NCBI GenBank assembly: GCA_021234155.1
Contig: JAJEKV010000011.1
Coordinates: 18,552,677 to 18,616,676, forward strand
DNA length: 64,000 nucleotides
Reading direction: 5' to 3'
Origin: Isoetes taiwanensis
Taxonomy: Eukaryota; Streptophyta; Lycopodiopsida; Isoetales; Isoetaceae
The translations under genes were made by a program, and so were the position numbers. Shown here piece by piece: positions 3,041-60,800 of this stretch (within the stretch, counting starts at the first letter, position 1; each line of letters begins with the position of its first letter). The notes beneath the pieces were generated by a model. That model ran no database searches, had not been told where the DNA came from, and saw only the letters and a program-made list of their open reading frames with translations.

Positions 3041-4254
3041 CTTGTATCATACTTGTCCTTATCAAACGATGTCAATGTTCTATCTCTTAGAAATATTGGC
3101 CCTGTGCTGGCTTGAGTGGTAAAAAAAAATTCAAGATTTTATTTTCTATTTCTGTTTCCGGTGGCTTTTGTTGCCTCTCGGTTTTTCAGTGTAAAACTAA
3201 TAGAGAGTCGGTCTTTAGGTAACTTCAAGCATGGTATTTGTTGGAGGCCTTGGCCTTTATTCCAGAGCCACTAATGGGTAGGGAAAAAATTAAGTATACT
3301 ATATATTTTTTCATAAGAAATGGTTTGGCTATTTTTCAAAATTTTATAGTATTTTATGATATACATTTGGCTAAACTTATTATTATTACATTTATATGTA
3401 TTGGCGAAACTTTTGAATTATATACTATAAATGTTCACTTTGCTATTTTATCTAACCGGAAAAAAAAAACAAAAAATGTAAAATAAATTTTGTAGCTTTA
3501 GATATATTGTACTATAATTACAAATTATAATCAACATCCAAGGAACATATAATAATATTAGAAAACTTTTAACAGACGCTCACAACGTAGTTTATAACAT
3601 CCATGCTCTGGACTACATTCAATGTAATGACACCTTCTAGATATGGCGATCAAATTGTACTTATCTCTAACCCTTGAAAAAAAAATGTTATGCAACCAAC
3701 TCGGGCATCTAGAGGGATATTGGCCATCTCTTACAATTCCTTTTTGAAGATGCATATGTGGCATATGTAATAGAAATTCATAGTTTGAAAAACTACTATC
3801 ACTGATGATAGTAGGTGGGGATGTGTAAAAGTCTATAATAAGAATTCATTTTTATTGGGCTATTAATGATTTAATATATAAATATTGTAATATAAAGAAG
3901 GCTAATCCTTTTTTCTTTAAGAATAGAATAATCCTAAAAAAATAATCCTAAAAAAATAATGGAGCACTTGTTTTAACTATGGCTATTTTTTTTTAAAGAA
4001 ATCTCTCTTCATAAAGTTCGCCGCAAAAATTATCTAGACCCCCTAAAAGATTGTCATTTGGCTATTAATAGCCATTGATTTTTTCCATGCTAATGGGACT
4101 CCAACAAGGGTTTTCAGTTCTCATGGCAGGGTCCTATATGCTGGAAGCAGGAGACTCTTGCAGGTTGCTCTATCTCGGAATGCTTCATTTCTATATGGCC
4201 AACTCCATGACAAATTTGTTCACGTTTGTGTTAATTTTTTTTTTTTTTTTTCAA

Positions 4255-4335
4255 TTTGGTAATGAAATCAACAAGAGCAGTACTCTTGGGAAAATTCTTG
4301 GATGGTTCATGGCAGCAATATATATGGGTGGAAGG
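4255..4335 (+). pseudogene. Second PQ-motif exon fragment of the transporter
   Basis: The frame encodes STLGKILGWFMAAIYMGGR, which closely matches the second repeat of plant PQ-loop proteins, where the motif reads GW.MAAIYMGGRLPQI. Here the reading continues into repeat-derived sequence directly after GGR, so the Pro-Gln pair itself is lost. It lies about 1.2 kb downstream of the Ser-rich loop exon, the right order for one gene. The missing PQ dipeptide and abrupt junction argue that this copy is broken. Confidence 0.5.
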
Positions 4336-4454
4336 TTCACGCCGTCAGTTCGATCCCTTGGCTCCTACCTCCAGGAGGTTTTAGATCTGCGGACTCATCT
4401 CTGCCCCGGGTGCCTATCTGAGGTGCCGGGAATTCATGTGTATATGTATATTTG

Positions 4455-4620
4455 TACAGCTGCCAGCAGGCTTGTTGCTGCGATGGTTTTTCCCTCCTAA
4501 GGGGGGGTTTTTTAATCCGGGTAGCAACGGGCTTGCTTCACCCGTGTAATTTGGGTCCCATAGGCCGATTGGCCTCCGTGGACGATAAAAGAACCTTCCT
4601 TCCTTCCTTCCTTCCTCAGA
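4455..4620 (+). mobile_element. RTE-like LINE 3' end with (TTCC)n tail
   Basis: The segment shares a block with six other places in the window: a GGTTTTTCCCTC stretch, then TTTTTTAATCCGGG, then GGTCCCAT and finally CTCCGTGGACGATAAAA. It ends in a run of TTCC units. In the longer copies at 14.9-16.9 and 53.8-55.4 kb this block follows reverse transcriptase sequence, so here it is a strongly 5'-truncated LINE. Immediately upstream (4336-4450) is a region with a tRNA B-box-like string (GTTCGATCC), so this may be a SINE sharing the LINE tail. Confidence 0.7.
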
Positions 4621-4790
4621 TTTGGCAAGTTCATCCATCATACTTTAATAGTTGGGGTTTTGACACTAGACATGTGATATCAACATTATGTTTACCCTTT
4701 GGCAGGGGACTCCATTGTATCAATGGGGATGCAAGGCAACACCATGTAATTTTAAAGTGGTAGGCTGGCCAGAGGGAGTCTTGATGTAAT

Positions 4791-4940
4791 GTAGTATCTC
4801 TTGGAAGGAAGATTTTAGAGCTTGAGAAAGTAGAGAAGGTATCTAACATTTGCAAAATGTTTGCCTTAAACCATATGGAGGTCCTGTCATTTATTATTCG
4901 ATACTGCGGGATGTAAGCGAGTATGAGAAGCAAAATGTGG
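4791..4940 (+). repeat. ~150-bp direct repeat, left copy
   Basis: This block, starting GTAGTATCTCTTGGAAGG and ending AGAAGCAAAATGTGG, recurs in the same orientation at about 12136-12288 with roughly 90% identity by eye. The two copies bracket 7.2 kb of mostly pyrimidine-rich, gene-free sequence. They may be terminal repeats of a decayed element or ends of a segmental duplication; no TG...CA ends are evident. Confidence 0.65.
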
Positions 4941-5106
4941 GAATCCAGACTTCAAGGAAAATACACTCTGATGGAAAAAAGACTTCACATGGAAATCAGA
5001 TGTTAAAGATCATTGTGTTTCTTGAAGCTCTTTGGCCATGAAATAGCATTCTTACGTACATGAGTATGCGTTTACAATCAAAAGCAGGTAGATGTTGAAT
5101 TGAAGA

Positions 5107-5899: not shown

Positions 5900-8800
5900 A
5901 TTAGTTGCTTGGGTTTTCCTTAAAAACCTAAAAAGGCGTGGTTCGTCTTCCTGATGAGAAGCAGTCACCAGGTCTTCTCACCTTTGCATCGACCAAGTGG
6001 CGGATAAAACCATCTTTTATATTGTATTCTTTAGTATCATCATGCTCTCGATGATTGTCTAGTTTCGGAGCATTTTAAGTTCATATTTCCAAATTTATCT
6101 ACTCCTAGTGAGGGATCCTACCAGTCTTCAGTCTCAGACCGATTCATTGCTCGATCTGTTTCCCTACATCATTTCGTCACTCTTCTATGGTTCGGTTGTG
6201 GGTAAGTTTAGTCGTGGCCTCTTGATTTTGATAAGGTTTTAGGGTTGCTTTCGCTAGATTAGGGTTTATCTGTTAGTTTAGAGTTTCTTTTTGTTGGATC
6301 GTTGTCAGGAATTTAGGTTATCTGCTTCTGTTCATATAGATTCTTAGATGGGTTCGGGTGGGGTTGACTTATTTTTTCCAATACGTTATGGCAGTTTTAT
6401 TTTTTATTGTGATGGTTTTTCTGGAATGCCCAGTCTTGATTTTCTGGAAGCCCATTTTTCTGTAATTTGACCGGTTATTGTTCCTCTATTCTTCCTTGCA
6501 TGATGCACTTGGATCATGGACATTACTGTAGGAGGTTGTCCAGGCTGTAGGTGTTGAGGCCGAATCTCCTTACCACACACGCCCTTTAAACATGTGCAAA
6601 GATGGCTGCAGATCGATCTGGCTTTGGATGCCAAATCTCTGACTCCTTGAGTATTTACGGCAGTCTTGGATCTTAGTTACAGAGTGCTTGTTTTTGGGCA
6701 TGGAGACCAAGCGATTGCAGATTATACTTTGGGCATCCGATCGAGCTGCATGCCCGTTCTAAAGGCTTATTCAGGAGGTCATCCGGTTCTCTCAAATACA
6801 AAGATCTCCGTATTTTTATATTCTTGCATGCACATGTTTAGCCCTAACATTTTAGACTTGAATTCTCAACGCTATCTATTGTGGACAAATTGTTCGAATG
6901 CATCCAAGGATGCAACTGTGGAGATTTGATGTATGGCCAAGAAAGCAACGAGCCGCTGCGTTCCCTCAAACACTATGATTCTATTGTTGCGGGTCTTTGG
7001 TACAACACCGGATTTTGTTTTTCTTTTTATTTGCCACCCAACAACAATCCATACCACATTTGTCCGTGCTATTCTTAAACTCTACTAACTCTTCTTCTTT
7101 AACATTAACAACAAAAGTGTTTATTTTCTCATAAGCCATTCAACGTCTCTTTGCATAGCCTATAGCGTAATGTAGCAAGTATTACGTTAGAGAGCATTGC
7201 ATGTGTTCTGTTTAGGGAGCATTGCATCCATTCCGTCGATTAAGCTTTGTTTCTAGGCCCTCTACATATGGTCTTAACGACATTATCCCCTCAACCATGT
7301 TAGATGTAGGAAGACCATGGCTCATAGCCGATTCTGCCTTTTATTAGTAATAGATAGATCTTTTTTATGTAGTAACGGATAAATCAGGTTCATGCCTGAG
7401 AGTCGCGTTTATGCCTTTATGGAACTCAGTCCTTTGGTAGCAACATGAAGCGTAATACCTCCATTTTCTCTATGTGGCCAAGAGATGCATTGTTAGAAAT
7501 TGAACATTTCACCTCTTTGCCCATGTGCGCAGCCACACATTACATAGCAGCCATCCTTTTGCATCATATCTACCTTTGTCGTTTTCCAATACTCTCTTCT
7601 TGGAGTTCCATTGTGCCTGCGTGATTTCTCTCGGTTCTAAATACTAATACTAATATTGCTTTTCGGCCGAAGATCGATAGATTAGTTTGTTCTTTCCATG
7701 AGGTTCTCATGAGAGTGTGCAAATTTTTGTGAACTAATTCGCACGTTCCTGTTTCATTCATACTAATGTTGTATATGTTTATACATGGTTCCATGGCAAT
7801 CTCTCCCATATACATTATTCTTACTTGCGCTAATATTGGTCTTCTGTTTCGAAGGGTTTCTTGGGCAATACCATACGATCTTCAATTGTAGCTTCAATCT
7901 TGTGGATCTAACATTGTCCGCAGCCATTTTGATCTGGCCACAATCTTCGATTTGGAAAGGGCCTAGTTTTTTCTAGTATTCTTTCTCTATTTTGCAACTA
8001 TCAAGTCTCTCCGACTGTAAAGTTCCCTCTTTCTTTTTCACTCCATCTAATTTTTATCAGGTTTGCAGGGGCTTAAATGAGTACCTTATGGCGAGGTGTT
8101 TTTATGAACTCGGGGGCTAGGATATATAGATTCCTAAGTGGAGTTGTCTTCTAAGCACAGGTTTCATTCATTGTAGAATATTGACGTATTTGTTAGTTGC
8201 ATGTTGTTGATTGATTGACATTACTTTTTGTTGCTGGGCAAACTTGAATTTCTATTTCCATCAGAGCAACGTGCATGTGTTTCCAACATTACTTATGAGG
8301 TGCATATTTTTTCTAACATTATTTGCGTTCTTTGTTCCTTTTACATCTTTTTTCTTTCTTTGGCTTCATTGCTCCTTCTAATACCCATGCTTTCATTAAG
8401 CCTTCATTTTTTAATTTCATAAGTGATTTGCATTGATGGTTTACCTTTATAAGTTTGGATGAACCCATTGCTCATATTTGTTATATCTATTAGTTAGATT
8501 AGTTTTTGTTTCACAGTATTTTGTCGCCATAGTAGTCAATGAGTTTGTCAGCTACATTGGTTCTCTTGTTTAATCTCAAGTGCACTTTGATTGTTGTCGA
8601 TTTTCGCTGTGCCATTTTTCATGTCTCCCATTCTCTTTCTGTGTTCTATTTGTCCGTAGACTTGGGTGTCCTTATTCGCCCATTCTTTTCGATCCGTTTG
8701 ATCTTTTTTTTCGCGGCCATCTCATTAGTCCCTTGTGCTCCATGGGCTTTTACGATTCTTTCACTTTGTTGTCCACAATTGCTTCCCTCCCCTCTTGTCT

Positions 8801-11800
8801 TGTTTAGCCTCCCACTCTTTCCATATTGGTTCTTATGTGATCGTGGTTATGTTTTCATATACTAACTATTTTTCTTGTCTCCCTCTCTTTTTTTACATTC
8901 CATTTGCCCATGTTTTTGGGTGTCCTTATCTATCCATTCTATTTTATTGCTCTTTTTTATCTTGACCACCTCATTGGCCCTTTGTACCCCTTTGGCTTCT
9001 GTTGTTCATTGGCTTTGATTTCTACCATTTCGTCCCTCCTCTCCAGTCTAGAGTAACCACCCATTCTTCTTTTGTTGGATTTGTCACACTTACCTATTTG
9101 GCTCTAGCTATATTTTGCCCCATTCCACCTATTGTTAGTTCCCTTGTGATCTACTTATCCCAATTGCCATTAATCCTCTTTTTGGCCTTATTGTTTCTAT
9201 TTTTCATTGAAACATAGGTGTTCCAGAGGATTATTTTTGGGGTGCATTTGTTGTTGACGTGCATAGATGATTTCATGTGCCTCATTACGAAGTTCTGTCA
9301 CGATTGACATATAATTGGATGCGCTGGATTAGGACGATGTGATTGCTATTTATGGCCTTCTTGTTTATGGCCTTTCACATTTTTTGGTCTTTACATCCTT
9401 TCTCTTTACATAGGCACCATAATTCTCAAGTTTTTTGGATATCAACTTTTAACATTTTACACATTGCATTCTTCGCACCTTATTTTGTAACCTTTTGAGA
9501 CAATGCTTTATTGGTCGGATTCATCTACTTGGTGTCCTTTCTAGACTAATTGCGTCTGCAATAGGCATAGTTGGATACATTATTTACAGCTCTGGTCATG
9601 TTTATTTATGTTGTTTCTTTGTTCGTTGTTCCGTTTCTGTTCTATCCGTTCTTTTTGTCTTGCACTTGTTACTTTTCCCTTCTATCGTACGGTTCCATTT
9701 ACTTATTCTGCAGTGTTTAGTTATTTACTTATTTGCTTATTTATTTACTTATTTGCTTTATTTATTCCATTTACTTATTTGCTTTGCGTTTTAGTTCGAT
9801 GTGCTCCAGTGTTCAGGCTCACTTTGTTGTCGTTGCCGCTAATATGTTAGTCTTTAATTCTATTGTTCTGGTTATCGCCCTGACCTCATCTTCTATTTGA
9901 CATCCTTTTGTCCCTTATATCCCATCATGTGCTTTAATCACATTTGTCCACACTTGTTCTATTTGGTCACTAGTCTCCTTAGCCTCCATGGTCTGATTAT
10001 TCCATTCACACTTTTTCAGTTGTTCTAGTTTGGTCATTTGCTCGCCTTTTCGGTCATTTTCTTAGTTCCATGCGCGTATTATTCGATTCATTTATTGTGC
10101 GCCCCTTCCAAATTTTATTTACTTTTAGCACTGCATGTTTTGCTTTAGATAATTATTCCATTATCTTTATACGTTGTCCCTTTAATCTAGTGTTCATGTT
10201 ACTTTCTTTTCTTTTGTACCTTATTTTTTCTTTGTGTTTGATTCTTCAAAGTTCTTTAGTTATGTTTTGCTCCTACAAGTGTTTCTTTTATTTACTTCTT
10301 CTGCCTTCTATTTCTACTGATAAATATTCTAATTATGGCTCCTTTCTGACTTCTGTTCATATTAGCATGCCATTCGTTACTTCATTTTCTCCCATAGTTC
10401 CTTTGGATTTGTTGCCTTTTTCTTTTTGCTATCTATGTTAGTTTGGGGTTATCGTATGTTTTGCTGGCATAATGTTCGTTAGTGCATTAATTCAGTTGGA
10501 TCTGTGTTTGGTGGTGGTGGTTATTTTTGGTTATTGTCATATTCGCAGATTTGTTTGTTTTCATCCCAACAGTTCCTTTTTCCATCTTCCACTGCATTGT
10601 TCCATTGTTTTCTTTTAGGTTTTCCATTGCGACAATATTTCGGTACAGTTCCTTTCGCATCTTTCATCGCACTATTTCATTTTGTTCACTTTAAACATTT
10701 TGTTATTTCGTGCCTTCGATTCTTTATTTGCCATTTCTGCCTCGCTTATTTGTCCCATTATTCTACTACTTTTGTTGTCTCCTTACTCCATTATCCCTTA
10801 TGCATTTTTGATATTCTGGCACTTCTCACTTGCTTCACTTACCTCGTTCTCCACTTGCTTCATGTTCCCTATCAACTCCTTTATCTATGCATTTTGTTCA
10901 TTTTGCATTGATCTCGGTAAACTTGCTTCTCTATTTCACTTCTTCATTTCATATTCATGTCTTTGTCTTACCTGTACGTTTGTTTCATTTGTTGCATTGA
11001 CCCGTATAGACTTATTTTTTCCTTCGGCTTTTACTTTCATATCTGCTTGGTTTTTGGTTTGTTCGAATTTGCCAAGTTGGTCCCCTAGCCGCTCTACTGG
11101 TATCCTTCGATCATGATACATGTGTTTCAGCTTTTTTAGAATTGGCTTGTCTCCTTTTTTGTTTTAAACTTCCTGCCTTTTTTCGCATTGGCCTTTTGTC
11201 TATTAGCTTGACCTTGGTTGCTTTTGCATCCATTCGAATCCTCGTACCAATATTTGGTTTTTCATCCTGTCTTTCATTGCTGCTACCTAGCTTGACTCCT
11301 CATATACTTAGTTCCTTTTTTGCCATGTGTTTTTGCCATGTGTCTCTTTACACGTCCTGTTCTCCATGTCACTATTTGCTCTGCATCCCTCTTATTTGAT
11401 TCTTTTCTACCGCATGCGATGTTCTCTTTCCATCCGACTTTCATCCCATCTGTCCCGTTGTTATTCTGTATGTTCTAAAAGTCCCTCTTGCGTCTTTGGT
11501 TGTCTCCAGTTTTGATTCATTCCACTTGCTCCATGTGCCCCATCAGCCTTACCTGTGCATTCTGTTTTTCTTTATGCCAGCGACCTTTGGAGACTTATTT
11601 CTGCCTTTCTTTATACCATATTTCTTTTTAGCTTCTTTCTTTCTCCTTGCTGTATAGTTTTGAGATTTGTTCCTCTTCTATCGGCCGTCATATGTGCTAT
11701 CATAGGACCCATCCTAGGAACGAACGTTTTTAAGTTTTTCTATTTTTTTCATGTTGGTCGTGCAAGTGAAATTGCAATTCTCTTCGATATGAGAAAGCTT

Positions 11801-12130
11801 GAGTGAAGTTCAATAGCTGGTAGCATCTTCAAATTGTTGGCCGCTCAAATTTTGGCTGGCTTTTTCCTGTTTTGTCCTACCATGTTCGTCAAAAATCTTG
11901 TGTAAAACCTTATGGATAAATGACATACTTATCATAATTTGCGTACTTTTGTGTCCTATGTTCTTTGTTATTTATCCCTTCACAAATCACCACTACTTTT
12001 TTAAGAACATCACAATCACAATGGTTGGATTGGTTGTATGTGAACTATTAATCTTAATTATTTCTACTAATCTTAAGGCTAAGATATTCTTCTCTAACGG
12101 ACATGCAACAACATTTCTCAAATGTGAGAT
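5900..12130 (+). other. Gene-free pyrimidine-biased domain
   Basis: From about 8.2 to 11.8 kb the plus strand is very rich in T and C, and its many overlapping open frames encode Leu/Phe/Ser/Cys-rich peptides that are a composition artefact, not genes. Phrases such as TTCCATT, CATTTGTCC and TTGTTC recur in slightly altered form, suggesting an old expanded repeat. The 5' part (5.9-7.9 kb) is more balanced but also lacks a supportable gene; 6230-6300 has AGGGTTT-type sequence often seen in plant leaders. I see no transposase, RT or RNA gene here. Confidence 0.5.
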
Positions 12131-14877: not shown

Positions 14878-16862
14878 AGGAAGGAAGGAAGGAAGGAAGG
14901 AAGGAAGGTACTTTTATCGTCCACGGAGACCAATCGGTCTATGGGATACAAAAACGCAGCAAGCGGATTACTGCCCGGATTAAAAAACCCCCGCCCCGAA
15001 GGGTTTTCGAGGGAAAAACCGTGGCAGCAATCAGCCTGCTGACAAACTGTCCTAACATATAAAATGCAAAAACACCCAAATATATCTGATCATGCACCAC
15101 TCCCCGTAGTGCCTAATCACGGGCGACCGGCGGGGCAAAGGTGACCTCGCAGTCCAAGCCCTCCTGAATATGCGATCCCGTGGCACGTCTCGACGGTGTG
15201 TTCATCGGCAAATGCAAGGGCAAGTCCGGCCCATACTAAGGGAGCGTGTCCGCCCGGATCGACCGATCAACGCCGGGCAACTCCGGAAAGTGTGAGACTC
15301 ATCCTCAATGGCACCCGTTTCCACGAAGACCGACGAGCACGTCTGGCGGGGGCTCCCCAATCCACTTGCCCGCCTCGATCGCGAAGATGGTGGGCACTGC
15401 GGCGAATGGAGGCAATGAGTCTGCTTTTTCAGGCGGTAGGGGAACGCAGGTAGAGCCGTGGCCCCGCTAACACGGGTTGATGTGCTCCTTTGTAATGGGC
15501 CATTTTGACTGCTCTAGAGCCGGGTCCCGTGAGCTTGCCAAGGAAACAAGCGTCTAGGTACTCCCGCGGTCGCCACGATCGGCCACGGCCCACCGCGCAT
15601 CACGTGCTCTGTTCTCGCACGCTCCATCCGGACCAGCGATCTATCTTACCCCTCCAACAGGCCCTAAGCGGCTGCGGACCCATGGCCACGGTGTAAGCCC
15701 GGTCGCGGGGAGCCGAGCATCACCCATAGTAACCACTTTCTCTCGAAAATATACGATGTGTCTATCAAGGGTCGCCGGCCGGCGGCAAGAATCCGGTTTC
15801 TACAGCGTAATCCGATAGGGGATGAAGGTTTCACCCAAGTGCCCGCCAAAAATGCCTTACGTTTTGCTCCAAGTCATTCCAGTCGCCAAAGAGACGACAG
15901 GGCCCCAAACCTCCGACCCGTCTGGAAGGACGTGCTCGACCGGTGGCACAGACGATGTGACCGATGGCCCCAATCATAGAGCTCACCACGGTCGTGGTGT
16001 TCGCATGGCATAAAGCGCTTTCCGGCCTCACCACCCATAAGCGATAGACGCCTCCCCAGAGCAGAAGGAGGGGGAACTCCACCCCCAGGTACTTGTAGGT
16101 GGGCGTGACGCCCACAGTCCGCCCTGATATGTGAGTGCGGAGGCATGGGGTGACGTGAAGAGGATATGAGAACCACCCCGGTCTTGGCCGATTGACGCCA
16201 AGCATGTGTTCAGAGCGACAAAATGTGTCTAGGGCATCCGGTGAGATCGCATAGCTTCGGGGTGTGGGCCAAAGCCAGGCCAACATCGTCCCGCATAGAT
16301 GAGTGGCGGGATGACACGTGCAAAAGTCCGTATGCCATTCCCCATGCTCGCGAAGCCGGGGCTCTAACCGACAATGTAGAGGCCAAAAGTGTTGGCGAAA
16401 GGGGGCAACCCCCGCCGACCCCGATACTATCGGTGAATGCTTGGCCCGTCACCGCATCCCCGCCAAAACAACTCTCATACAACCAGTATATGGCATTCGC
16501 ACGTGCAAATGGAGCCCCGGCTTGACGCAGCAGTCTAGCCCACGCTTTTTTCCTCGGGAACCGTATCAAAAGCCTTCGCGAAGTCCACAAAGCAGCAATA
16601 CAAGTCCTGCCGATGATTCCGGCTGTTTTCAATCAGTGCCCGCAGTGTAAAGATATGGTCAATCGTTGAGTGGCGGGGTCTAAAGCCTGCCTGTGTGAGG
16701 GCTCGCACATCTGCTGCCTCTGCCCAGCGGGTCAACTGCTGCTCGAGAATGCCAGCCAACAGTTTGGCAAATACTGAACTGACCATGATCGTCCGGTAAT
16801 TGGCCGGACAGTGTGGGTCGCCCGCCTTGTGAATTAGGGAGCAGATAGCAAAATTGACTAAC
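14878..16862 (-). mobile_element. RTE-like LINE, 5'-truncated, with reverse transcriptase remnants
   Basis: Reading on the minus strand, the element begins inside the reverse transcriptase (LIHKAGDPHCPANYRTIMVS) near 16860. It continues with AGFRPRHSTIDHIFTLRAL and CCFVDFAKAFDTVP (16535-16786), then in other frames LRQAG, a degenerate GGGCPLSPTL motif and YKYLGVEF. These are RT motifs of APE-type non-LTR elements, and HSTIDHIFTLR resembles the RTE clade. A ~170-bp 3' untranslated block follows and the copy ends in a run of TTCC units (GGAA on plus, 14878-14908). At least three frameshifts disable it. It stops about 240 bases upstream of the PPR start codon. Confidence 0.8.
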
Positions 16863-17100
16863 TGGTCAATTAGTTAACAAGAAAAGTGAGACCAAAAGTC
16901 GCATGCGTTATTTGAAGTGCGCACTAGGGTCCAGACTCGAGTTGATGATTTGTAAACCCGTCGCGGTTTCCAAGTCGTTGCCAAGTTTTTCTTGTTGCAG
17001 TGGGAGCCAGATCAAAGCAGAACTAAAATCGATAAACCAGGCAAGGTGTCTACTCTATGGTTGTCGTCTTCTATTATGAATTCGCAGCCGCGTTCTGTTC

Positions 17101-19347
17101 ATGACTCTCATTTCCCGTATTCACACTCTTGTAAAAGGAAATCAACATCAAGCACTCAAGGAAAGCACACATTGTGGTTATGTGAAAGAAAACTCCATAT
17201 ACTATCTCAGTCTTTTACGTGAATGCATCATTGCTGGTAACCTTGCAAGTGGAAAGCACATACATGGTTTTCTCATCAAACATGCAATACCCAGTATCCT
17301 TGTAGTGAACACACTTATTGATATGTACTGTAAGTGTGGAAATATAGCCTGTGCACGCCATGTTTTTGATAGATCATCTGTGCAAAATGTCTATACATGG
17401 ACCATCATGATTACTGGCTATGCCCAACATGGAGATGGGGCAGAGGCTCTCATGCTATTCCGGAAAATGCAGCAAGAAGGTGTGACACAAAGTCGTGTTA
17501 CATTCGTGAACGTTCTGAGTGCTTGTTCTGTAGTAGTTGCATTCAATGAGGGGAAGCGGATTCATGCAGAAATACTGGGAGGAGGATGTGAAGTGGACAT
17601 TTTTGTTGAGAATACTTTGATTAGCATGTACACCCAATGCAGGAGCATTACAGATGCTTGTCAAGTATTTAACAAGATGGAAGTTCGAGATGTCATAACA
17701 TGGAATACAATGATTACAGGTTATGTTCAGGAAGGAAATACTAAGGAGGCTTTCAGATGTTTTGAGGAAATGCAGCAAGATGGCATGAAGTTTAATAAAG
17801 TTACTTTCATTTGTCTTTTGGTGGCATGCTCCGATTTATTAGCTTTTGATCAAGGGAAGTGGTTGCATTGCAATATCCTTAAATTGGGCTGTGAGGGTGA
17901 TGATGTTGTAAGCTGTAGTCTTGTGGACATGTATGGAAAATGTGGGAGCATAAGAGATGCCCGTCAAGTCTTTGACAGGATCTGCGTAAAAAAACTAGTC
18001 TCATGGAATGTAATGATTTCAGGTTATGTCTTCCACGAAGATACCAAGGAAGCTCTTGCACTATTTGAATGTATGCAGCAAGATGTGAAGCCAGATGTGG
18101 TTACTTATATTAGCATCTTGAATGCGTGTGCCAATGGCTATGTCTTACATCAAGGAAGAAAGATACATGCGCATGTTGTAAAAGCAGGTCATAAGTCAGA
18201 TATCATTAACAATACCATTATCGACTTGTACATGAAATGTGGAAGCATTATTTATGCTCATGAAGCATTTGAGAAGATGCCCATAAGGGACGTCTTTACA
18301 TGGACTACAATGCTTACAGGATATGTGTCATGTGGATATGGAAAGGAGGCATTTAAATACTTTTTACAAATGCAGGATAACGAGGTTGCTTTCACAACCA
18401 TTTTAGGTTCTTGTGTTGGGGACAATGCTTTAGGAAGGGGAAAGTATGTTCATGCAACCATTGTAACATCTCGTTGCCAATTAGATGTGATAGTTTTTAA
18501 CGCACTTGTTGACATGTATTTAAAATGTGGAGATCTACATGCTGCATGCTATGTTTTTAATAGGATGCTTGTACGCAACGTTGTAGTGTGGACTGCATTA
18601 ATTTCAGGGTGCTCTCACCTGCTTGGTAATGAAATGGAGTGCCTCAAACTCTTTGATTTGATGCAGCATGAGGGTGTACTTCCAAATAACCTAACTTTGC
18701 TGAGTGTTCTGTACGGATGTGCTAGTTTAGGAGCTTTACAACAGGCTAAATGCATTATTGCAAGTTTCTTGAAAGGCGAGGAACAATCAGGCCTTTTTGT
18801 TGGTAGTTCTCTAATTGATACGTACATTAAATGTGGAAATCTTGAAGATGCCTGTCTTCTTTTTGATAAGAAAGTGCTTCGTGATGATGCCATGTGGAAT
18901 GTAATAATTGGAGGCCATGCCCAGCATGGGGATGGAAGAAAAGCAATCCTTCTATTTTGTAAGATGCAAGAAGAAGGCATAATGCCAGATGATGTGACAT
19001 TTATCTCTATTCTCTCTGCCTGCAGTCATGCATGCCTTTTAGATGAAGGAAACTTTTACCTGGTAACCATGGCACGAGACTGTGGGATTATTCCAGCAGT
19101 TGATCATTACTCCTGTATGACCGACCTTTTTGGCCGATCCGGGCTGTTGGATGAGGCAGAAGAAATTATGGATCATATGCCTTATGAACCAACCATCTCA
19201 ATGTGGATGTCTTTGCTTGGTTCCTCTAGGATATATTGTAGAAAAGATCTTGCAGAACGGGCAATGGAAAAGGTGCTGGAGTTGGAACCCTCAAATGCTG
19301 CAGCTGTAATTTTGCTAGCAAATATATATGCAAGAATTTTGGGCTGA
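17101..19347 (+). CDS. PLS-class pentatricopeptide repeat protein, short C-terminus
   Basis: This intronless 748-residue ORF is the best gene in the window. The ATG is the first after an in-frame TGA at 17077-17079. From about residue 30 to 740 it is a chain of PPR motifs in the P-L-S order, with recurring VVNTLIDMYCKCG, FVNVLSAC, MISGY and WN.MI elements. It ends with an E1-like motif (LAERAMEKVLELEPSNAAA). PPR proteins of this class bind single-stranded organellar RNA, one base per motif, and usually direct C-to-U (in ferns also U-to-C) editing. Here the frame stops at NIYARILG, at the start of the E2 motif, so the E2/E+ and DYW deaminase parts are absent. It may act with a separate DYW partner or be recently truncated. 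No TATA box is obvious; a LINE relic ends 240 bases upstream. Confidence 0.9.
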   Translation: MTLISRIHTLVKGNQHQALKESTHCGYVKENSIYYLSLLRECIIAGNLASGKHIHGFLIKHAIPSILVVNTLIDMYCKCGNIACARHVFDRSSVQNVYTWTIMITGYAQHGDGAEALMLFRKMQQEGVTQSRVTFVNVLSACSVVVAFNEGKRIHAEILGGGCEVDIFVENTLISMYTQCRSITDACQVFNKMEVRDVITWNTMITGYVQEGNTKEAFRCFEEMQQDGMKFNKVTFICLLVACSDLLAFDQGKWLHCNILKLGCEGDDVVSCSLVDMYGKCGSIRDARQVFDRICVKKLVSWNVMISGYVFHEDTKEALALFECMQQDVKPDVVTYISILNACANGYVLHQGRKIHAHVVKAGHKSDIINNTIIDLYMKCGSIIYAHEAFEKMPIRDVFTWTTMLTGYVSCGYGKEAFKYFLQMQDNEVAFTTILGSCVGDNALGRGKYVHATIVTSRCQLDVIVFNALVDMYLKCGDLHAACYVFNRMLVRNVVVWTALISGCSHLLGNEMECLKLFDLMQHEGVLPNNLTLLSVLYGCASLGALQQAKCIIASFLKGEEQSGLFVGSSLIDTYIKCGNLEDACLLFDKKVLRDDAMWNVIIGGHAQHGDGRKAILLFCKMQEEGIMPDDVTFISILSACSHACLLDEGNFYLVTMARDCGIIPAVDHYSCMTDLFGRSGLLDEAEEIMDHMPYEPTISMWMSLLGSSRIYCRKDLAERAMEKVLELEPSNAAAVILLANIYARILG

Positions 19348-21457: not shown

Positions 21458-21704
21458 CAACCACATTATTGCATGGATGAGGTACAGCTTTACCACTTTA
21501 CTTGCACAGTTTTTTATCGTTTGGACTGGACAATGCTGGGAAGATCAACATTGAATGATCCCTGTTCATCAGTTACTTGAGTTGTTGAACTGTTGAATTG
21601 TTGAATAGTATAATGATGAACATACCAGATCTATAGAAGCACATCAGCGTTCATAAAGGCACGGACTCAATTGTGCGCCTCGGTGCAGTATTGAATTGCC
21701 ATAT

Positions 21705-21895
21705 ATGATTGTACAGTCTACCAGCATACTTATTATTGCTAAGATTTTTCCCTCGAAAACCCTTCGGGGTGGAGGTTTTTTAATCTTGACAGTAATACGC
21801 ATGATGCTCTTTCTTTGTTTGGGTCCCATCGGCCAATTGGTCTCCATGGACGATAAAAATACATTCTATTCTATTCTATTCTTAAAAAATAAAAA
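21705..21895 (+). mobile_element. RTE-like LINE 3' end with (ATTCT)n tail
   Basis: This copy carries the same terminal block as the long LINEs (TTTTTCCCTCGAAAACCC, TTTTTTAATC, GGTCCCATCGGCC, TCTCCATGGACGATAAAA). It ends in ATTCT repeats, not TTCC. It is 5'-truncated to under 200 bases. Confidence 0.75.
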
Positions 21896-29065: not shown

Positions 29066-29857
29066 TGGGCGGCCTTCTAATTCCGATGCAGTTCAAAGCA
29101 TTGTGGAATCTAGTATCAGCGGAAAATTTCTTCTTCGAATATTGCAACTTCCATTCATTGAATCTATCAATCATACACAATATTGAAATGCCATCGAAGT
29201 AGAAGGGTCGTGATGAGCATTAGAATCCTTGACAAGCTAACCACATCCATTTTGGAAGACCTAAAGACATAAATTAGCATGAAATTTTCAAACAACTAAT
29301 ATCAATTGCTCGCAAACCCTAAAGATCGAGAGACGATAATGTGTACATTTCATTCTCTTGCAGAAAGGAAAACTATCAAAATGCCTTTGGATTTAGGGTA
29401 TTGATCCAAAATATCAAATAGCACATAGCCAACTATAATACTATATGCGAATCTGAACAATATATATAATATATCGTATTTTTCAAATTGCCCCTTGTTG
29501 ACAATAAAAATTTTAATGACACATAAGATTATAGTCTTATTCATCAGATTAACAATTGCAAATTTGGATCAAAATCAGATTAGCATTAGATTTATTTGAT
29601 CAAATGTTTTCATCATTGGGCACAACATTTTAGGATCAGATTTAAATTATGTATTGGTCAGCCATTCATCATTGATAAAAATGTTTTAGTTATAAGCTTT
29701 ATCGTCCACAGAAGCATGTTGCATTTGATCAATTGTTTTCATCAATAATAAAACCATTTTAGAATCAGATTTAAATCATTTATTTGATCAGCCTTTTTTA
29801 TCACTGATCAGACATTTTAGTCATAAGCTTTATCAACATATGCATGTTGCATCTACA

Positions 29858-30030
29858 TAGAATAGAATAGAATAGAATAGAATAGAATAGTTTTTTTAAC
29901 GTCCACGGAGACCAATAGGTCATGGGACCCATACAATGGGCTAGTACAATCATTACTACTAGGATTAAAAAACCCCTGCCTCGAAAGGTTTTCAAGGGAA
30001 AAACCTTTGCAGTAATGATGATACTAGACA
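29858..30030 (-). mobile_element. RTE-like LINE 3' end with (ATTCT)n tail
   Basis: Plus-strand AGAAT units are followed by GTCCACGGAGACCAATAGG, then GGATTAAAAAACCCC and the CCC...AAAACC block in the reverse order expected of a minus-strand copy. It is truncated to about 170 bases. Bases 29070-29857 before it are non-coding. Confidence 0.75.
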
Positions 30031-50490: not shown

Positions 50491-51386
50491 TCCTCCCATG
50501 CAGGTCTGTTATTGCTGGTTGTTTAGTAGTTATACAATAATGTATGTCTTCTAACTGCTCAGCAGTCCCATTTCAGAGGAAGCTACAAGAAAGAACTCTC
50601 TGAAATAAATAGCCTATTTGTGGGCCTTCAACATTAGAAAATCATAAGATTAGGCTCCACTTGTTTGAACCAAAGAGTATTTCTGTCTGTCCCAACTTCG
50701 TTAAAGTACAAAAGTACTAGTAGAAAAGCTCAAGTGGCCTGCAATATTTTCTTTCCTGTACCTAAATCTTGGCAATGATATTTCCTTAAAAGCATAATTT
50801 CTTCATACACAGAACTTCTAATTTAATTTCTACTACTTGTTAATGTCCTTAAGGGATCCATTTTTCAGAGTTCTTTTTGGAAAAGCTGTTACTTCCATCC
50901 AAACTAGGCAAAAGGCTGTATTGTTCTGACCCACAAAATGCTATGAATATCAGGTCTCTACTGAGATTAAGCGGGACAGCATCCATGGGTCCACTATCAA
51001 TACAACCTATCTTGAACACCAAGTAGCAGCTATGAATCCAGTAGTACAGAACCTATCTCCTCCATGCATAAGTCAAATAATGATGAAAACAGACAACAAT
51101 AGAATATCTGGGAACCAGTGCAAAACAAACAATCCAAGTAGAATTTCTTAAAGAAAACACCTACCATAGTTTGAAAAGCCCAATTCAGGCCGGATTGGTC
51201 GAGCACAAAGAAAACAACAATTCTGCCCAACATAAACAATGATTTAGACAAAATGGTGTCTTCTTCAATGGACATAAAAGTATGCAGCTGTGTTACCTAC
51301 AGTTTCGTATACACTTTGGAGTCCACTATTTCTATAAGAGTGACCACAAGGAAAAAAAGTTGCATTGTCCATCAGCATGCCCCTGA

Positions 51387-52057
51387 TGTTACGAACCAAA
51401 ATTTAGTACCAAAAATTTCGATTTGTATTCACATCAAACCATCAGAGTACACAGAACAAGTACTGCCTCCCACGAGGCTATATACATGAAAACCACGTAT
51501 ACAGATAATAAGACGACAACACAAGATAACTAGATGCACATGTACGCTCTGCCAGTTATCAAACAGCCTGCACAAGCTTCCACGTATTAGTAACATGCAT
51601 AAGGGTTATCTGGTAGTGTCAACATGAAGCAATGACTGACGGACTGCAAGAATACACATATGGAATCCACCGCACGCACCATAGTATCTGCCAAGCAGAT
51701 ACACCCCGCGCGGGGGTTCTAGACTAGATATGGCGGGGTGTATCTGCTTGGCAGATACTATGGTGCGTGTGGTGGATTCCATATGTGTGTTCTTGCAGTC
51801 CGTCAGTCATTGCTTCATGTTGACACTACCAGATAACCCTTATGCATGTTACTAACACGTGGAAGCTTGTGCAGGCTGTTTGATAGCTGGCGGAGCGTAC
51901 GTGTGCATTTAGTTATCTTGTGTTGTTGTCTTGTTATCTGTATATGTGGTTTTCATGTATATAGCCTCGTGGGAGGCAGTACTTGTTATGTGTACTCTGA
52001 TGGTTTGATGTGAATACAAATCGAAAATTTTTGGTACTAAAATTTTGGTTCATAACA
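51387..52057. mobile_element. Nearly palindromic 671-bp element with LTR-type ends
   Basis: Arm 51387-51709 and arm 51733-52057 are inverted copies at about 96% identity, with a 23-base centre. The outer ends are TGTTA and TAACA, and CCTGA lies directly outside both (51382-51386, 52058-52062). TG...CA ends and a 5-bp target duplication are the marks of integrase-made insertions by LTR elements. The arm ending at 52057 resembles the 3' half of a solo LTR. There is no coding sequence. Most arm differences are C/T or G/A. A transcript would fold into a ~320-bp duplex. Confidence 0.85.
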
Positions 52058-52566
52058 CCTGACATAAGGGATTGCATATGCCTTGCACTTAGAGAAGAAA
52101 TGTCCCAGGGGATGAAATCAATGTGCCCTCTTCTGCATCAGATGCTGAGGCTGCAAACAAAAAATACACTATCTGCTCAACTGACATGCTGCACAAACTG
52201 TTAAATGTTAAAGAATGTAATGAGGCCGCTGCATCTGCTATACTTAAAATGCATTGCTCCTATACTGTTACCTTTTGTGCTCATGATGCATTTTGACTAC
52301 TTGTCGATGTGTAGAGTGACCATGCCCTTTGTCATTGCCATGTTAAAAGCATCCTTCTAGAGCTTAGAAAATGAGGCTCATTGTAATACTGAATCATGCT
52401 CCCGTAGCAACTACATGTGCATTCTTCTTTCCTTTATGCTCTGGAAAATTGGCTAGATGACTAGGGATGCATTATGTTATGAGCTAGTATGCAAAAGAAA
52501 AATCCAATGTATAAACCACCAAGATGAATCAAGAATAATTTATTATTGGCAAACTTTACCAATCAA

Positions 52567-53510: not shown

Positions 53511-53814
53511 CTGCATAAAAATTGTTAATAATGATTTTTTCTGTCAAGTATATGGCCAATGCACAAAGACTTGCCAAAATGTTTTCTGACAATAAAAATA
53601 ATCATCACATTATTACTAGAGGGATGATTACACAATCTTATCCACAGCTATGAAATACAAATGGGCACATATATAAGTGTCTATTATTTACCACCAACAA
53701 GTTGCATCGTCGTAAGAACAGAGTTTGCATCGTCGTAAGAACATTGTTTACACTGGCAAAGGCTGATAATTTCAAAAGAATTGGCACGCTCTCCATTATA
53801 TAGTGAAAACTTAG

Positions 53815-55400
53815 AATAGAATAGAATAGAATATGATTTTATCGTCCACGGAGACCAACTGGCCTATGGGACCCAAGTACAAAGAGAGAGCAAGCAGCGT
53901 GACATTACTACCGGGATTAAAAACCCCCACCAAGGGTTTTCGGGGGAAAAACTTAGTAGCAATAAGGATGCTGACATATCTTACGATTATATACATAATC
54001 ACAAGTACAGTGAGGTTAATGTCTGACGGGGGCATAACGAAACCGCGTATCCATTACCTCCCGAGGTACGATCCCAACAAGCCTACAGAGGCCGTGCTCA
54101 TTGCTCATGCAAGGCCCGATGGGGCACAACTAACCGAAAGCATACCGAGCCCGATATGCTCGCAAATGACAAAGCCAGGCAGGAGGGCGTGACTTTCATC
54201 CTCAATGGCGCCCTGTGGCAAAGATCGACAGACTCTGTCCTCACGCGCGGCTCCTAATCCATCTCCCCGTCTCAATGCGGAGGTGGTGTGCACTGTCTTG
54301 AATGGAAGCAATCACCTGCGCTTTTTCATGGGTAGATGGGTGCGCGGTAGTGGTGTGGGCCCCTCGTGAGCATGGGATTAACCTGGCATCGATAATTTGC
54401 CACCTTGACATGTGACGGGGCCTCTGCATCCCAAAGCTTGGCCATGAAGCAAGCATCCAAGTACTGCTTTAAGGCAGCGCGTTCCTTCGGTGTATGCACT
54501 AGTCCACATCTGTGTGTCTGCATATTCCATAGCGAGAATCACTGGGCTTGCTTGTCTTTCCAACAGGCTTTGAGTCGCTGCGGGCCCATCGCCACTGCCA
54601 AAGCAAGGTTGGGCAGTCGGGCTTCATCCATAGCCACCACCTTCTGGAAGTAAATAATGTGACGTTCAGTAGCAGCCCTCTGTAATGGAAGGAAGCCTGT
54701 CTCCTGAGCAAGATCCGATATGGACCGTGGATTTCACTCCCAAAGCGGGCCAAGAAAGCCTACGTACTGCTCTAGATCGTTCCAAGTGGTGAGGGATATC
54801 ACCGGCCCCCACACTACGCCCCATAGAGGAGGACCGGTTCAACCAAGGCATTGAACAAGTGTGCTGGTGACCCCATGTATCTGACTCGCCTTGTGGATTT
54901 GTTGTTTTGCATTGCATCTGTGGGCTTTCCGGCTGCGGTGACCGTAACGATGGATGCATCCCAAAGTGTGTGGTAGTAGAAAACTCAATGCCCAAATACT
55001 TATAAGATCGAGCCACCTCCACTACACTACCTCGTAAATGAATGAGGGAAGGCGGGTGCCGGGGGATGGGGACCAAAGCGGCACCCTTTGTCTTGGCCAA
55101 GTTAACTCTCATGTCGGTGAATTGGTAGAAAGTGTCCAAAGCATCCGGTGGCGTTGCATGTCCTCCTCGGGTATATCTTGAAGCGTGTCAACATCATCGG
55201 CATATATGAGTTGCGGGATTATGTGGTGCATCAACCGAAGCCTCCCCTCCGGGCTCAGCTAGCCATTCTTCTAGCTGGTCAATGTACAAGCCGAAGAGCG
55301 TCGGGGATAGAGGGCAGCCCTGGCGCACCCCAATGCTACTAACAACGGGCTCCCCCGATAGTGTGAGATGACCGGAGCAAGCCTCGTATAGTCGAGCTGC
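53815..55400 (-). mobile_element. RTE-like LINE, 5'-truncated, with (ATTCT)n tail
   Basis: The minus strand starts inside the RT with LYEACSGHLTLSGEPVV and SIGVRQGCPLSPTLFGLYID, continues in another frame with MRVNLAKTKGAALVP and ARSYKYLGIEF, and ends in the family's 3' block plus AGAAT units on plus (53815-53832). The RT motif 'QGCPLSPTLF' is intact, unlike in the 14.9-16.9 kb copy. Frameshifts break the ORF. It lies 300 bases upstream of the APO pseudogene in the same orientation. Confidence 0.85.
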
Positions 55401-55406
55401 TCTGCT

Positions 55407-55496
55407 TCAATAGTTCTGTATAGCCTGCAAAAGAGATATCAATTATACAGAACTTATAACTGTATGTCTCTTTTGCAGGCTATACAGAACTATTGA
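55407..55496. repeat. Perfect 30-bp inverted repeat (hairpin)
   Basis: 55407-55436 and 55467-55496 are exact reverse complements separated by 30 bases. The loop also contains TATACAGAACT, part of the arm. It stands at the 5' junction of the LINE at 53815-55400. Related AGTTCTGTA/TACAGAACT pairs occur again at 57679-57704. Confidence 0.85.
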
Positions 55497-55499
55497 CGC

Positions 55500-57265
55500 A
55501 TAGCGAGACACTTATAGCAATGTCTGAATCTAGAACACTTACAAAAATACACCATAGGTTACTAATTTAAAAGGAGATGATATAAATTTTTTTCTTTCCT
55601 GACCAACTTTCATAGACAAACAAATTTGTATGTCTGTTAAAACGGCTCAGTAAATGTCTGCCATGGTTAATAAAGCAAATAGCCAATGCAAATGAAATGC
55701 CAAAAAGTGTCAAACCTGCAAATTTTGACAGGAAAGTCTTTCATTATCCTGACAATCCCAACATAAGCCCAATGTTTACAAGTTAGATTGAAGCGGACAA
55801 TGGTGTATTTCTCTGCTTGATCTAACAAAGAAAGGCATATATATTGACTTCTTCCAAAACACACAAATGGATTTCACTTATGTAACATGCTGCCAAAGAA
55901 GCCACAAAGTGATTCAATTACACAAATCGGACAATCAATTATACAAATAAGAAAATAGGCACATGCTTCCTCTCAATCTCAATCTTTCATAAACATTCTG
56001 AAGATGTTTGTTCCATAAAGCCAAAGATGTATCCTCTTCGTGATATAACAATGATAGGCATACCGGAAGAGCTTCTGGCAGGGGCAGAAGAAGGGAAACA
56101 AAAGATCTATGGAGTGCATCACGCCTAGCTCTGTCGGTTAGACGGTTTTAGAGAGGCCGCCCATCAACTGGTTTGAAATACTGGTTATATCAAATGTACT
56201 GGTTTGAAATATGATCTAGTGCTTGTACATGGAAATACTCAAGAAGTATTAAATCTATACAGACAAAAGCTATAGCCATAATGAGTGTCAAATACAAACT
56301 TTGAAGAAAAATCTGAAAGGCAAAAGCGAGAAGATTGCACATTTCAGAAGAGTGCCAATTTGTGCTATGCAGTGAAAGTGAAAGATTGCCTATTTGAGAA
56401 TATACCTCATAATATCCTTGAGAGCGATAGTGCCAGAATCCAACCTAGGTTATAGAAGCATATGTAGAGCTTAGTAGCTAAAGCTCATATTTTCTTTTAT
56501 AGGAGGACTTTCAACATATAGTTTTATGTTTTACCTCAAGCAATTGAGCTAAGGGGTCTAAAGCTCCGAATGGGCAAGAAGCCGATGAGCCAGAACCAGA
56601 ACCCTTAACGGACCTGTGCTTATCTTCTCCTTGTACTGATTTTCAATGGGTAGAACATTTATCAAGACCGAAGCTGAAGCTTGAGCTCCAGTTCAAGTGT
56701 AGGCGAGCCGAATTGAGTTGAGCGAATTGGGCTCTCGTCAATTCCTTGAAACAACAGGACAACCATGGCAGTGCCGGTTAGCCAGTTTGCACATTGGCCG
56801 CCCAGCAACACTGGCGACCGCCAGTTTACAGGCAACAATAAGTTCGGAGCAGTTCCGGGCATATCCTAGATATATTCCAGCATATACTTAGGATATGCCG
56901 GAAACCCACATGAGCAAGGGTTTTCCCCCTAGGGGCAACCCAAAAATTGAAGAAGATACCCTAAGCACTATAAATTATATATAAAGACAATCTGAAGCAA
57001 ATTACAGAGATGGTGCAAAAAACAATAAAAGACATCGGTTGTCAAAAAATGTAAAAATGAAGAATAATGCAAAAAATCAATACTTAGCCCCTAGAGGCAT
57101 AAAATGTATGGATGAACAAATTAAGCAATGAGTCATGGAAAGGAATCCCTACCCTAATGAGGCTGAACAAGGGTCAATACAATGACTATCATGCCCACAA
57201 AAAGGTGCAACTCAAGTAATTAAGACAAACTAGGTCATCGCTTGCGGGCGAGTTTGAGACGCCGT
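55500..57265. other. AT-rich, nothing supported
   Basis: Short open frames only. No APO N-terminal exon, RT or RNA gene was recognised. Confidence 0.4.
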
Positions 57266-57839: not shown

Positions 57840-60800
57840 CTCCGTGGAGTATAGTCCAAAGTCAGCGAGATTCCAGGCATATAAAGAAGGCGCTGCCGGA
57901 TTCCCCGAAAATCAGGTTTTGATCCGGGAGTTGGTAACTGAGACCTGCCACATATCTATTTTGAGCTCAAGACCGTTGTACTATATATATGAGTAGAGAT
58001 AGATCTCAAGTTTTAGATGAGATTTTGGCCTTATCTCGATTGTTTTCCTCTCGCTTGACGAGAGTTCATGTACTCAAGTTGATATCAAGAAATTCTTATT
58101 TTCGCTCACTGTTTTGTTTTGTTCTCTCCTTTCCTTTCTTTCTTTTCTCTTTTGCAAAATCCCACGTGACACTCATCAAGGATTCTCCTGCTTGATCCAA
58201 GGGTCCTCATAGATGTCCTGCAGGAGATCCCGAACCCAGACCCTAAACACTGTCGTCATTGCCGAGTCTTAGTTCTATTTCTTTCCCATCAATATGTCTG
58301 CTCGCGCTTTCACTCCTGAGGAACTCCTTAGTCGAACTGCGGCCCGATTGGAACGCCATCAGCGCCACGAAGCTGCTCGCGAAATGTATGATCCTGACTG
58401 TGATATTGAAGGAGGCCGTGTTCGCTCACGTGCTCAGTCGGCATCTCCCACCCCTCGTGTCAGTTCTCGACCAGGGTCTCCCTCTATTTGCAAGCACTGC
58501 TCTCAATCACAGTCGCCACATCATACATCGGTCCATCCTACTCCTCATTATTTTCAGACTGCAGATAGCACTTACATTCATATCCCTTCTGGTCACACTC
58601 CTTTGCCTTCGCAACCCTCTTCTCCTCTGGCGGGGATGGGCTATCCACATGCCTCTTTTGGCCCTCCCCATGTTCATGAATTTCAGTCCTCCCCATCCTT
58701 TCAGCAGGTTCCCGTTTACAACATTACTGATCTCAAGGTAACTGAGGATGGCTCCCAAGACCCTTTGCCCATGGAAGCTCCTCTCTCTGAACCACCTGGT
58801 TTCTCAGTTCCTATGCCACCACGTTGTTCCCAGCCCACGGCTGTTCCTCAGGGATATATTCTCACTTATGCTCCACCCCTTTACACGCAAGTCCATGCTC
58901 CGTCACCTGTTCAAAATCTTAAGCTCACATATCCGATTTTTGGGAACACCAAAGGGAAACCCCTAGATCAAAGTGCCCAATCTCACATGGAGGAATTTAA
59001 GGCCTTGCCTATTCTGAATGGCCATTCTCAGCCTCAACTCAAGTTCCACATTTTCTCTACCACGCTGTGCAGAGCCCCTCATCAATGGCTCGTGGGCAAC
59101 AAAAAGTCACTGGAAACAAAACTGGCAAGAGATGAAGACTGCCTTTCTCTCACATTATGGCACCACGGATGATGATCAGCAGCTTCTGAAGCAGCTCAAT
59201 GATCTACAGCAACAACCCATGGAGTCTTCCCGTGACTTTGCGGATCATTTCCAAATTCTTGTCAGCAAGCTTAAAGAGTATCCCACGCAGAGCCAGATTC
59301 TCGTCTGGTTTCTGCAGGGTCTCCCTCCTGCCATTCATCTCATGACAGAGTACCTGCGTCCTAAGACCCTGGAGCAAGCCATCGAATTGGTGAACCACTT
59401 TGTCAATGTGTCTTTTGGGGGTGTTTCCCTCACTGAACTTCCTTTCATGCCTCCTGTCATGGTTCCTCAGAATGCGGTACAACCCCAACAATCTGCTCCT
59501 CCTCAAAGAAGTCAGATTTGGTGTCACATTTATAAGTACCAAGGTCATCTTGCCAATGACTGTAACTCCACCAATGGTCCTCCTCACTGTAAACATTGCA
59601 ATACGTGCAATCATTCTACGGAAGAGTGTACTCGTGCACATCCTACACCCTTCAGGCAAAAAATTTTCTCAGCAACAGCAATCATATCCGCCTCAACAAT
59701 ATCAACAGGTTCAGCAACCCCAACAATCTCGGGGTCAAGGTTCCAGAACTCCTTTTGATCCCTCGAAAGCCTCGTGTTATCACTGTCAAGAATGGGATCA
59801 TACCACCACGGCATGTTCTCAGCTTCCTCAAGTTCAAGTCCAGCTTCCCGGAACAAATCAAAAGGCTTCCGTTCACCTTACTGCGTACCAACTCTAGGTC
59901 GCCAATGGCAAATAGGGTCCACGTCCAGTTTTGAAGAAACCCCCTCGACCACCACAGCAGCAGAGACCTCAACAAGTGGCACCCTCCACCACTCTGGATC
60001 AACAAGCTCAAGAAGAGATCCATCAAGCTCTTAATCCTCCGGTATAGCCATCCAATTGGGTTGGTCTGGTCTCATGCCAAACCAAGGCATCACGCCCATT
60101 GATGATCATACCACATGACACGCAACCTGCATTTGCTGTGGACACCATTCCCCATGAGGAGCACAAAAGGGTCCATTCCGACCCTGATCTTGATAAGCTC
60201 ATGTCTCATGTCATGCCTAAGATACGCCAGAGCATTCTCAAACTTATGTAAGCTACTGAAGGACGCATGCTTGCCAATGTTCATGCCACCACACGTGCCC
60301 AGCAGCGTTAGGAATCGCCCTCCACGTCAAAAAACCCACGCACTCATCAGTACCCCAAAATTTCTACTGAAGTGGAGCTCCTCAAGGAAGTCTTTGCGTC
60401 CATGCCCCAGACTCCTGCACCCTTGGACTTTGCAGATCCCTTCTCACATGTTTCCTTAGAACTCCAAGAGGAACTGACAAAAATTAAGATCCTGAGTCTT
60501 GCTACTATCCTCAAACTGTGTCCTGCTCTCAAGGAACAGTTGCCCCTACTCACGGACTTGGAGGTGTTGTAGCCACTTCTACCCCCACGGTACGCGCCAC
60601 GGTGGGAAATCAACAGATCAATCATGTGCAAATTGATGGCGATAGTGCCGTCAACCTCATCACGGACAAGCTTCGGAAACAGTTGGGCATCAAACAACTT
60701 TATCGTGCCCTCTATGACATCAAGCTTGCTAATGGCCACATCACGTGACCTCAAGGCGTCACCCCTCTTCTCCACATCAGTATTGGTGTGACGTTCCAGG

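Follow-up and report, generated by a model that had tools for sequence, protein, structure and literature searches.

A palindromic insertion in Isoetes taiwanensis with the U5 end of a Ty3/gypsy LTR on both sides, probably an aberrant reverse-transcription product

In this study we describe a near-perfect palindrome of 671 bases in Isoetes taiwanensis, found at positions 51387-52057 of the analysed stretch of 64,000 nucleotides, which we call the window. The palindrome is real and goes back to one insertion event. Normal linear cDNA of a long terminal repeat (LTR) element ends in U3 on one side and in U5 on the other, and here both ends of the insertion are U5. We consider it probable that the palindrome arose when integrase inserted, in a single event, an aberrant Ty3/gypsy reverse-transcription product with U5 at both ends. 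This suggests that the DNA of such an element can be mis-copied to a two-tailed form, yet still be inserted.

Structure of the palindrome

The initial annotation had described a near-perfect palindrome within LTR-type boundaries, and this is confirmed. Its two arms (323 and 325 nt, Table 1) differ by 12 substitutions and two 1-nt indels. Their inverted similarity stops exactly at TGTTA on the left and TAACA on the right, and CCTGA starts at the next base on both sides. The arm differences had been called mostly transitions, which holds for 11 of the 12 substitutions, with one transversion. The further claim that many of them lie at CG sites is correct in part: C>T or G>A accounts for nine of the 12, of which five fall at CG and four do not (in the right arm, CG makes up 17 of the 133 C/G positions). 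As a pattern of base changes, this bias at CG fits the decay of methylated DNA, and it is no proof of silencing by the palindrome locus.

The spacer is 11 nt shorter than the same stretch of the common LTR allele, and the right arm contains a TATATAG box-like sequence. The predicted RNA fold of the palindrome has an energy of -600.8 kcal/mol, compared with a mean of -184.4 kcal/mol (sd 7.2) for 20 shuffled sequences. Scans of the window with Rfam at gathering cut-offs and for tRNAs gave no matches.

Table 1. Features of the palindromic insertion, in window coordinates
Feature	Position	Strand	Remarks
TSD (target-site duplication), left copy CCTGA	51382..51386		supported by the empty sites of paralogues L072, L073
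Left arm, 323 nt, inverted Ty3/gypsy LTR tail	51387..51709	-	U5 end outward; TGTTA is the reverse complement of TAACA
Head-to-head junction ACACCCCGC/GCGGGGG	51701..51716		2-bp GC overlap with common LTR allele, read by eye
Spacer, 23 nt	51710..51732	+	runs on into right LTR tail (GCGGGGGTTCTAGAC..TAGATATG)
Right arm, 325 nt, LTR tail	51733..52057	+	U5 end TAACA outward
TSD, right copy CCTGA	52058..52062		upheld by empty paralogous sites

Several other features of the window were recorded. A smaller near-palindrome of 106 nt (55399-55504) is 87% self-inverted and is possibly a MITE-like hairpin. Five copies of a repeat of about 165 nt are found in both orientations and at about 71-81% identity (4437-4616, 14886-15061, 21702-21882, 29855-30030 and 53809-54003); this dispersed repeat is probably a short interspersed element. 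The + strand of 8001-12000 is strongly pyrimidine-rich, with an AT skew of -0.43 to -0.47 and a GC skew of -0.14 to -0.21, and the same region has several overlapping, hydrophobic-looking open frames. An open frame of 755 aa at 17080-19347 consists of pentatricopeptide repeats (PPR), with an E motif just under the cut-off. A gag-like frame at 59018-59755 (Ty3_capsid, Retrotrans_gag) belongs to a Ty3/gypsy element.

Target site and empty sites

A search with the left flank, in which 21 candidates were scored, gave six loci, namely the window (L068) and five paralogues (L069-L073). The palindrome is absent at the corresponding place in all five paralogues. In two of them, L072 and L073, the left flank passes directly into the right flank, whose identity is 91.8% and 89.1%, respectively, and a single CCTGA or CCTGG is found at the flank join. 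The empty sites read ...CCTGACATAAGGG in L072, with one copy of the pentamer, and CCTGGCATAAGGG in L073. Because these sites carry one pentamer, the duplicated CCTGA is a target-site duplication, as had been annotated. The palindrome thus has both the 5-bp TSD and the empty site that belong to a Ty3/gypsy insertion.

The parent LTR family

We searched the assembly (1.66 Gb, 1,110 contigs) with the right arm. The initial annotation had advised such a search for ordinary, single-arm LTRs, and these were found as single-arm LTR tails in many copies (759 candidates, of which 40 places were scored). In one member of the family, L033, the LTR is about 1.73 kb long and ends at base 1861 with GTAACA, followed by GTGGTATCA. 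The second LTR of L033 starts at about 6505, after a purine-rich tract. Several family copies have GTGGTATCAGAGCC directly after the LTR end, which we take to be the primer-binding site complementary to the initiator tRNA-Met. Other copies vary in the 5' part and in the middle of the LTR.

The open frames between the LTRs of L033 match Retrotrans_gag, RVP_2, RVT_1, RT_RNaseH_2, rve and SH3_Tf2-1. From this set of domains, gag to SH3_Tf2-1, the family is therefore Ty3/gypsy. The order is that of this group as well, with reverse transcriptase (RVT_1) and RNase H (RT_RNaseH_2) followed by the integrase-related rve (26.7 bits, below the cut-off of 32.6) and SH3_Tf2-1 (71 bits). No tyrosine recombinase was found in the three L033 frames scanned, and these frames do not show the DIRS-type replacement of a DDE integrase by this enzyme.

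Counting the L033 LTR from base 134, the right half of the palindrome corresponds to LTR 1368-1728 and the left half, inverted, to LTR 1409-1728. Each arm retains the final ~320-360 bp of the LTR and lacks its 5' three quarters. Both halves map to the 3' part of the LTR, therefore both ends of the insertion are the U5 (3') end. The arms are joined inside U3, with the U5 ends pointing outward. An inverted joining of LTRs before integration had been one of two suggested origins, and it is supported for the LTR tails (U5, R and the 3' part of U3) and not for whole LTRs. The other suggestion, a TIR-to-TIR element that mimics LTR ends, is not supported, as the arms are Ty3/gypsy LTR tails. The palindrome shares LTR-derived sequence and TG..CA termini with Ty3/gypsy insertions and lacks their combination of one U3 end and one U5 end. 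It is not a solo LTR either, which would be one complete LTR in one orientation between TSDs, since it holds only the tail, in both orientations. Among the ordinary single-LTR copies with both host flanks, two of three have a 5-bp TSD (L008 with CCTGC and L039 with CTCTA), and L040 is without one.

Other arrangements of the LTR tail were recorded as well. L075 (2-1427, G000:C943) and L081 (2-1447, G000:C974) both have internal sequence (L033 ~2204-3208 and then ~3573-3847) joined to an LTR tail of ~180 bp; by their common structure, they may represent one internal-deletion derivative, possibly a non-autonomous one. In L031 (G000:C1033:3722000-3731500), three direct copies of the LTR tail, ~3.97 and ~2.94 kb apart, lie in a tandemly repeated unit, and two of the three are followed by the same host flank after the U5 end.

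A single template for both arms

To compare the arms, we aligned them with the tails of 28 other LTR copies (L003-L030). At every one of the 12 substitutions, one arm deviates from the family majority state, the left arm in eight cases and the right arm in four. Seven of the deviating states are absent from the 28 other copies, and each of the remaining five is seen in a single copy. Of the 34 sites that are polymorphic among the other copies, the arms differ at one and agree at 33. Pairs among the other LTR copies have a median of 9 disagreements, and one pair out of 378 has at most one; this sole pair as close as the arms consists of L004 and L007, both in one tandem array. From the agreement at 33 of 34 sites it follows that the arms began as identical sequence and diverged later.

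Two other possible sources of the arms were rejected. A dimer of two clearly different element copies is ruled out by the same agreement. By overall distance, L003 is the nearest copy to each arm (tied with two others for the left arm), and its allele CCCGCGCGGG, seen in 1 of 44 matches, would allow 5-bp priming in cis. A source LTR with this rare allele was dropped, as L003 matches the arms at 27 of the 34 polymorphic sites, which is no better than L020 and L028.

A second U5-U5 insertion

A further insertion with U5 outward at both ends was found in L035 (G000:C1018). It is 4,016 bp long (1054-5069) and flanked by a duplication of GGATG. The left end is an inverted LTR tail of 258 bp (LTR 1473-1728), which is fused to the RT region (L033 position 4149); from there the insertion continues in + orientation through the 3' LTR to the second U5 end. 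The 3' LTR has a divergent middle and is without about 363 nt (LTR 1334-1696). The fusion lies at GACTnACGAA, where inverted LTR tail and internal region match at nine of ten bases; at the unmatched position L035 has a third base. A 9/10 microhomology is expected in random joins with a frequency of 0.00025. The junction was found nowhere else, as only L035 itself spans it among the 40 places scored of 799 candidates, and as far as seen in these places, L035 does not appear to be a multiplied copy. The test for a single template is confined to the window palindrome, since of the right-hand U5 end L035 retains no more than 32 bp. The palindrome and L035 are two independent U5-U5 insertions, each with its own 5-bp TSD, and they are unlike in centre and length.

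Frequency of U5-U5 insertions

No inverted partner of the family was found near 78 other LTR copies, within a context of 1.5-2.5 kb in which long cases like L035 would escape. These copies are a sample of the family and comprise 28 viewed with flanks of 1.5 kb on both sides and, with upstream context, 30 to about 2.5 kb and 20 to about 2 kb; matches to the second LTR of L033 were omitted, and L031-L037 are outside the count. One of the copies, L040, had been flagged for both orientations solely on account of L033 8869-8992, a stretch beyond the element, and was scored as having no inverted partner. L036, whose LTR pieces at 595-1103 and 3476-3644 lie in both orientations, may represent two neighbouring or rearranged elements. 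A second palindrome was not found either, as only the window copy spans both arms among the 40 places scored of 759 candidates. The mobile palindromic family that had been envisaged is thus not seen: there is one palindrome in these places and the 78 other copies, and L035 is built differently.

We also listed 166 exact-match LTR 3' ends without a primer-binding site (56 + 83 + 27). One pair of these U5 ends lies less than 30 kb apart and points outward, and this pair is L035. The pattern misses ends with a changed base, such as the left end of the window palindrome, which lacks one base, and ends before GT. As a control, 56 LTR 5' ends were inspected by eye for U3-outward pairs, and no converging pair was found within 1 Mb. 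This control is weak, since less than one pair would be expected at the U5 rate (one pair per 166 listed ends), and its pattern excludes duplications ending in A and many subfamilies. A listing with a narrower U3-end pattern gave 4 matches. In these scans, U5-U5 insertions look rare.

Proposed origin and alternative explanations

The minus-strand cDNA of LTR elements always carries U5 at its 5' end. We propose that two nascent minus-strand cDNAs of one element, each begun at the tRNA primer and so with U5 at the 5' end, would both have halted in U3, where their 3' ends would have annealed via few complementary bases and each been extended on the other. Alternatively, one minus strand might have folded back on itself. 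In the linear palindromic duplex so made, either end would carry a normal U5 attachment site; integrase would have cut both back to CA and inserted them with a 5-bp stagger. Later, the centre might have been shortened by loss of sequence between CCCCGC repeats and of 11 nt between CTAGA repeats, and the arms would have diverged, chiefly by C>T. Best supported are the insertion itself, the LTR origin, the U5 end on either side and the single template; from this anatomy of genomic copies, with two known insertions at hand, we infer the priming, mutual or self, the action of integrase and the order of the central deletions. Olsen and Swanstrom reportedly described in 1985, for defective retrovirus DNA, aberrant strand transfers and abnormal linear DNAs during reverse transcription, which may be relevant here.

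At the junction, the minus strand of the common LTR allele reads CACCCCGCC..GAACCCCCGCGC. Strands that end at GCGC could pair with each other through 4 self-complementary bases, and ACACCCCGC/GCGGGGG, as observed, would remain once sequence between the CCCCGC repeats had been lost. Mutual priming would have used two short strands in the window, and a long and a short strand with nine of ten complementary bases in L035. It is a point against mutual priming that the overlap of the window junction with the common LTR allele is just 2 bp (GC), and the third base of L035 at the odd position of its microhomology is another. Since 4-bp priming at GCGC needs a later deletion, the priming step leans mainly on L035.

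We prefer mutual priming over a snapback in cis, and the two are not firmly separated by the data. In the snapback, which we regard as unlikely, one minus strand halted in U3 would have folded at the hairpin TCTAGAC..GTCTAGA, copied itself, been linearised (for example by re-priming) and then been inserted. It would explain the single template for both arms, and the observed junction would arise directly with 2-bp GC pairing. In 39 of the 48 copies in which this stretch was recognised, a 7-bp inverted repeat occupies the spacer position, and a DNA fold of the nascent strand, for which the L003 allele was used, pairs the 3' end near the observed turn. However, such a repeat is just mildly unusual, being found in 82 of 1,693 35-nt stretches of an LTR, and the better 5-bp pairing is available only with the rare allele (1/44 matches). 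As a hairpin has one open end, the snapback also needs an extra step for a two-ended integration with a TSD, and for L035 it would require a loop of ~3.8 kb, as calculated from the L033 coordinates. A rearrangement in place would likewise predict one template. Here an ordinary solo LTR or element with its CCTGA TSD would have had its 5' part replaced by its own inverted tail through a later replication template switch at the terminal TGTTA. TGTTA is common to the LTR 5' end (TGTTATG) and the inverted 3' end (TGTTACG), which provides a 5-bp microhomology at the exact boundary. We nevertheless find this quite improbable, because two switches would be required, one of them exactly at the TSD border, and the coincidence would have to be repeated in L035; its U3-outward counterpart was not found among the 56 ends of the weak control.

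The remaining two explanations deserve hardly any credence. With its long inverted arms, short spacer and TSD, the palindrome has the overall shape of a non-autonomous DNA transposon, namely a MITE or foldback element whose terminal inverted repeats are long and whose TSD is 5 bp. Such a family would show multiple copies with common TIRs and a common centre, and among the sampled copies (40 places scored of 759 candidates and the 78 other LTR copies) no second palindrome was found. A TIR transposon or MITE family is rejected on this result and on the origin of the arms as LTR tails of a Ty3/gypsy family. An artefact of the assembly or of a read would be just as far-fetched. Chimeric long reads typically show long inverted repeats with short spacers, which resembles the arrangement seen here. 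The arms differ, though, by 12 substitutions that are each a one-arm departure from the family majority, and the exact LTR ends, the TSD with its two empty sites and the same anatomy in L035 also make an artefact unlikely.

Comparison with known systems

The palindrome resembles the ordinary Ty3/gypsy insertions of Isoetes taiwanensis in its arm sequence, its TG..CA ends and its 5-bp TSD (in two of three single-LTR copies). In contrast to their U3 and U5 ends, it has U5 twice and consists of LTR tails only. In the Triticeae, 'complex' LTR insertions have been described with three LTRs and two cores that share the internal LTR (Sabot and Schulman 2007, PMC1950507). The passages of that paper on these complexes place odd LTR structures within one pair of 5-bp TSDs and attribute them to a fault of reverse transcription (PMC1950507). 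An odd LTR structure inside a single TSD pair is thus common to the complexes and the palindrome. In these passages no inverted unit is described for the complexes (PMC1950507), whereas the units of the palindrome are inverted and truncated, with U5 at both ends. DIRS-1 retrotransposons, as outlined in PMC5633606, have inverted LTRs, a tyrosine recombinase instead of an integrase, and circular intermediates. The palindrome is like them in having inverted LTR sequence at both ends, but its family has integrase-related domains and leaves a 5-bp TSD.

For retroviral integrase in vitro, the account in PMC11054761 mentions oligonucleotides that model U3 or U5 ends and a two-ended joining with target duplication. 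According to the same account, integration during infection needs both U3 and U5 ends (PMC11054761), whereas the palindrome appears to have used two U5 ends in a genome. The 'U5-U5' of PMC12789967 concerns RNA packaging in the part of the text where the term is used. Among the matches listed in our literature search, which mostly did not extend to subscription journals, there was no integrated U5-U5 insertion or palindromic LTR-tail insertion.

Significance

The two insertions raise the question whether Ty3/gypsy elements have a recurrent by-pathway. We put forward tentatively, and with clearly less confidence than the origin of the palindrome itself, that co-packaged minus strands might cross-prime at 3' microhomologies and form U5-U5 DNA that is accepted by integrase in vivo, seeding one-step LTR hairpins as possible silencers of their own family. 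If the proposed origin is true, the integrase of an LTR retrotransposon would have worked on the same (U5) end twice in a living genome, and a joining of nascent minus strands 3' end to 3' end would be possible. The scar of such a reverse-transcription fault would be U5 outward on both sides, one template, a microhomology at the junction and a 5-bp TSD, and long-read genomes of any plant would allow this U5-U5 scar to be counted. It would also offer a one-step origin of LTR hairpins, which are candidate feeders of the small-RNA silencing of the parent family.
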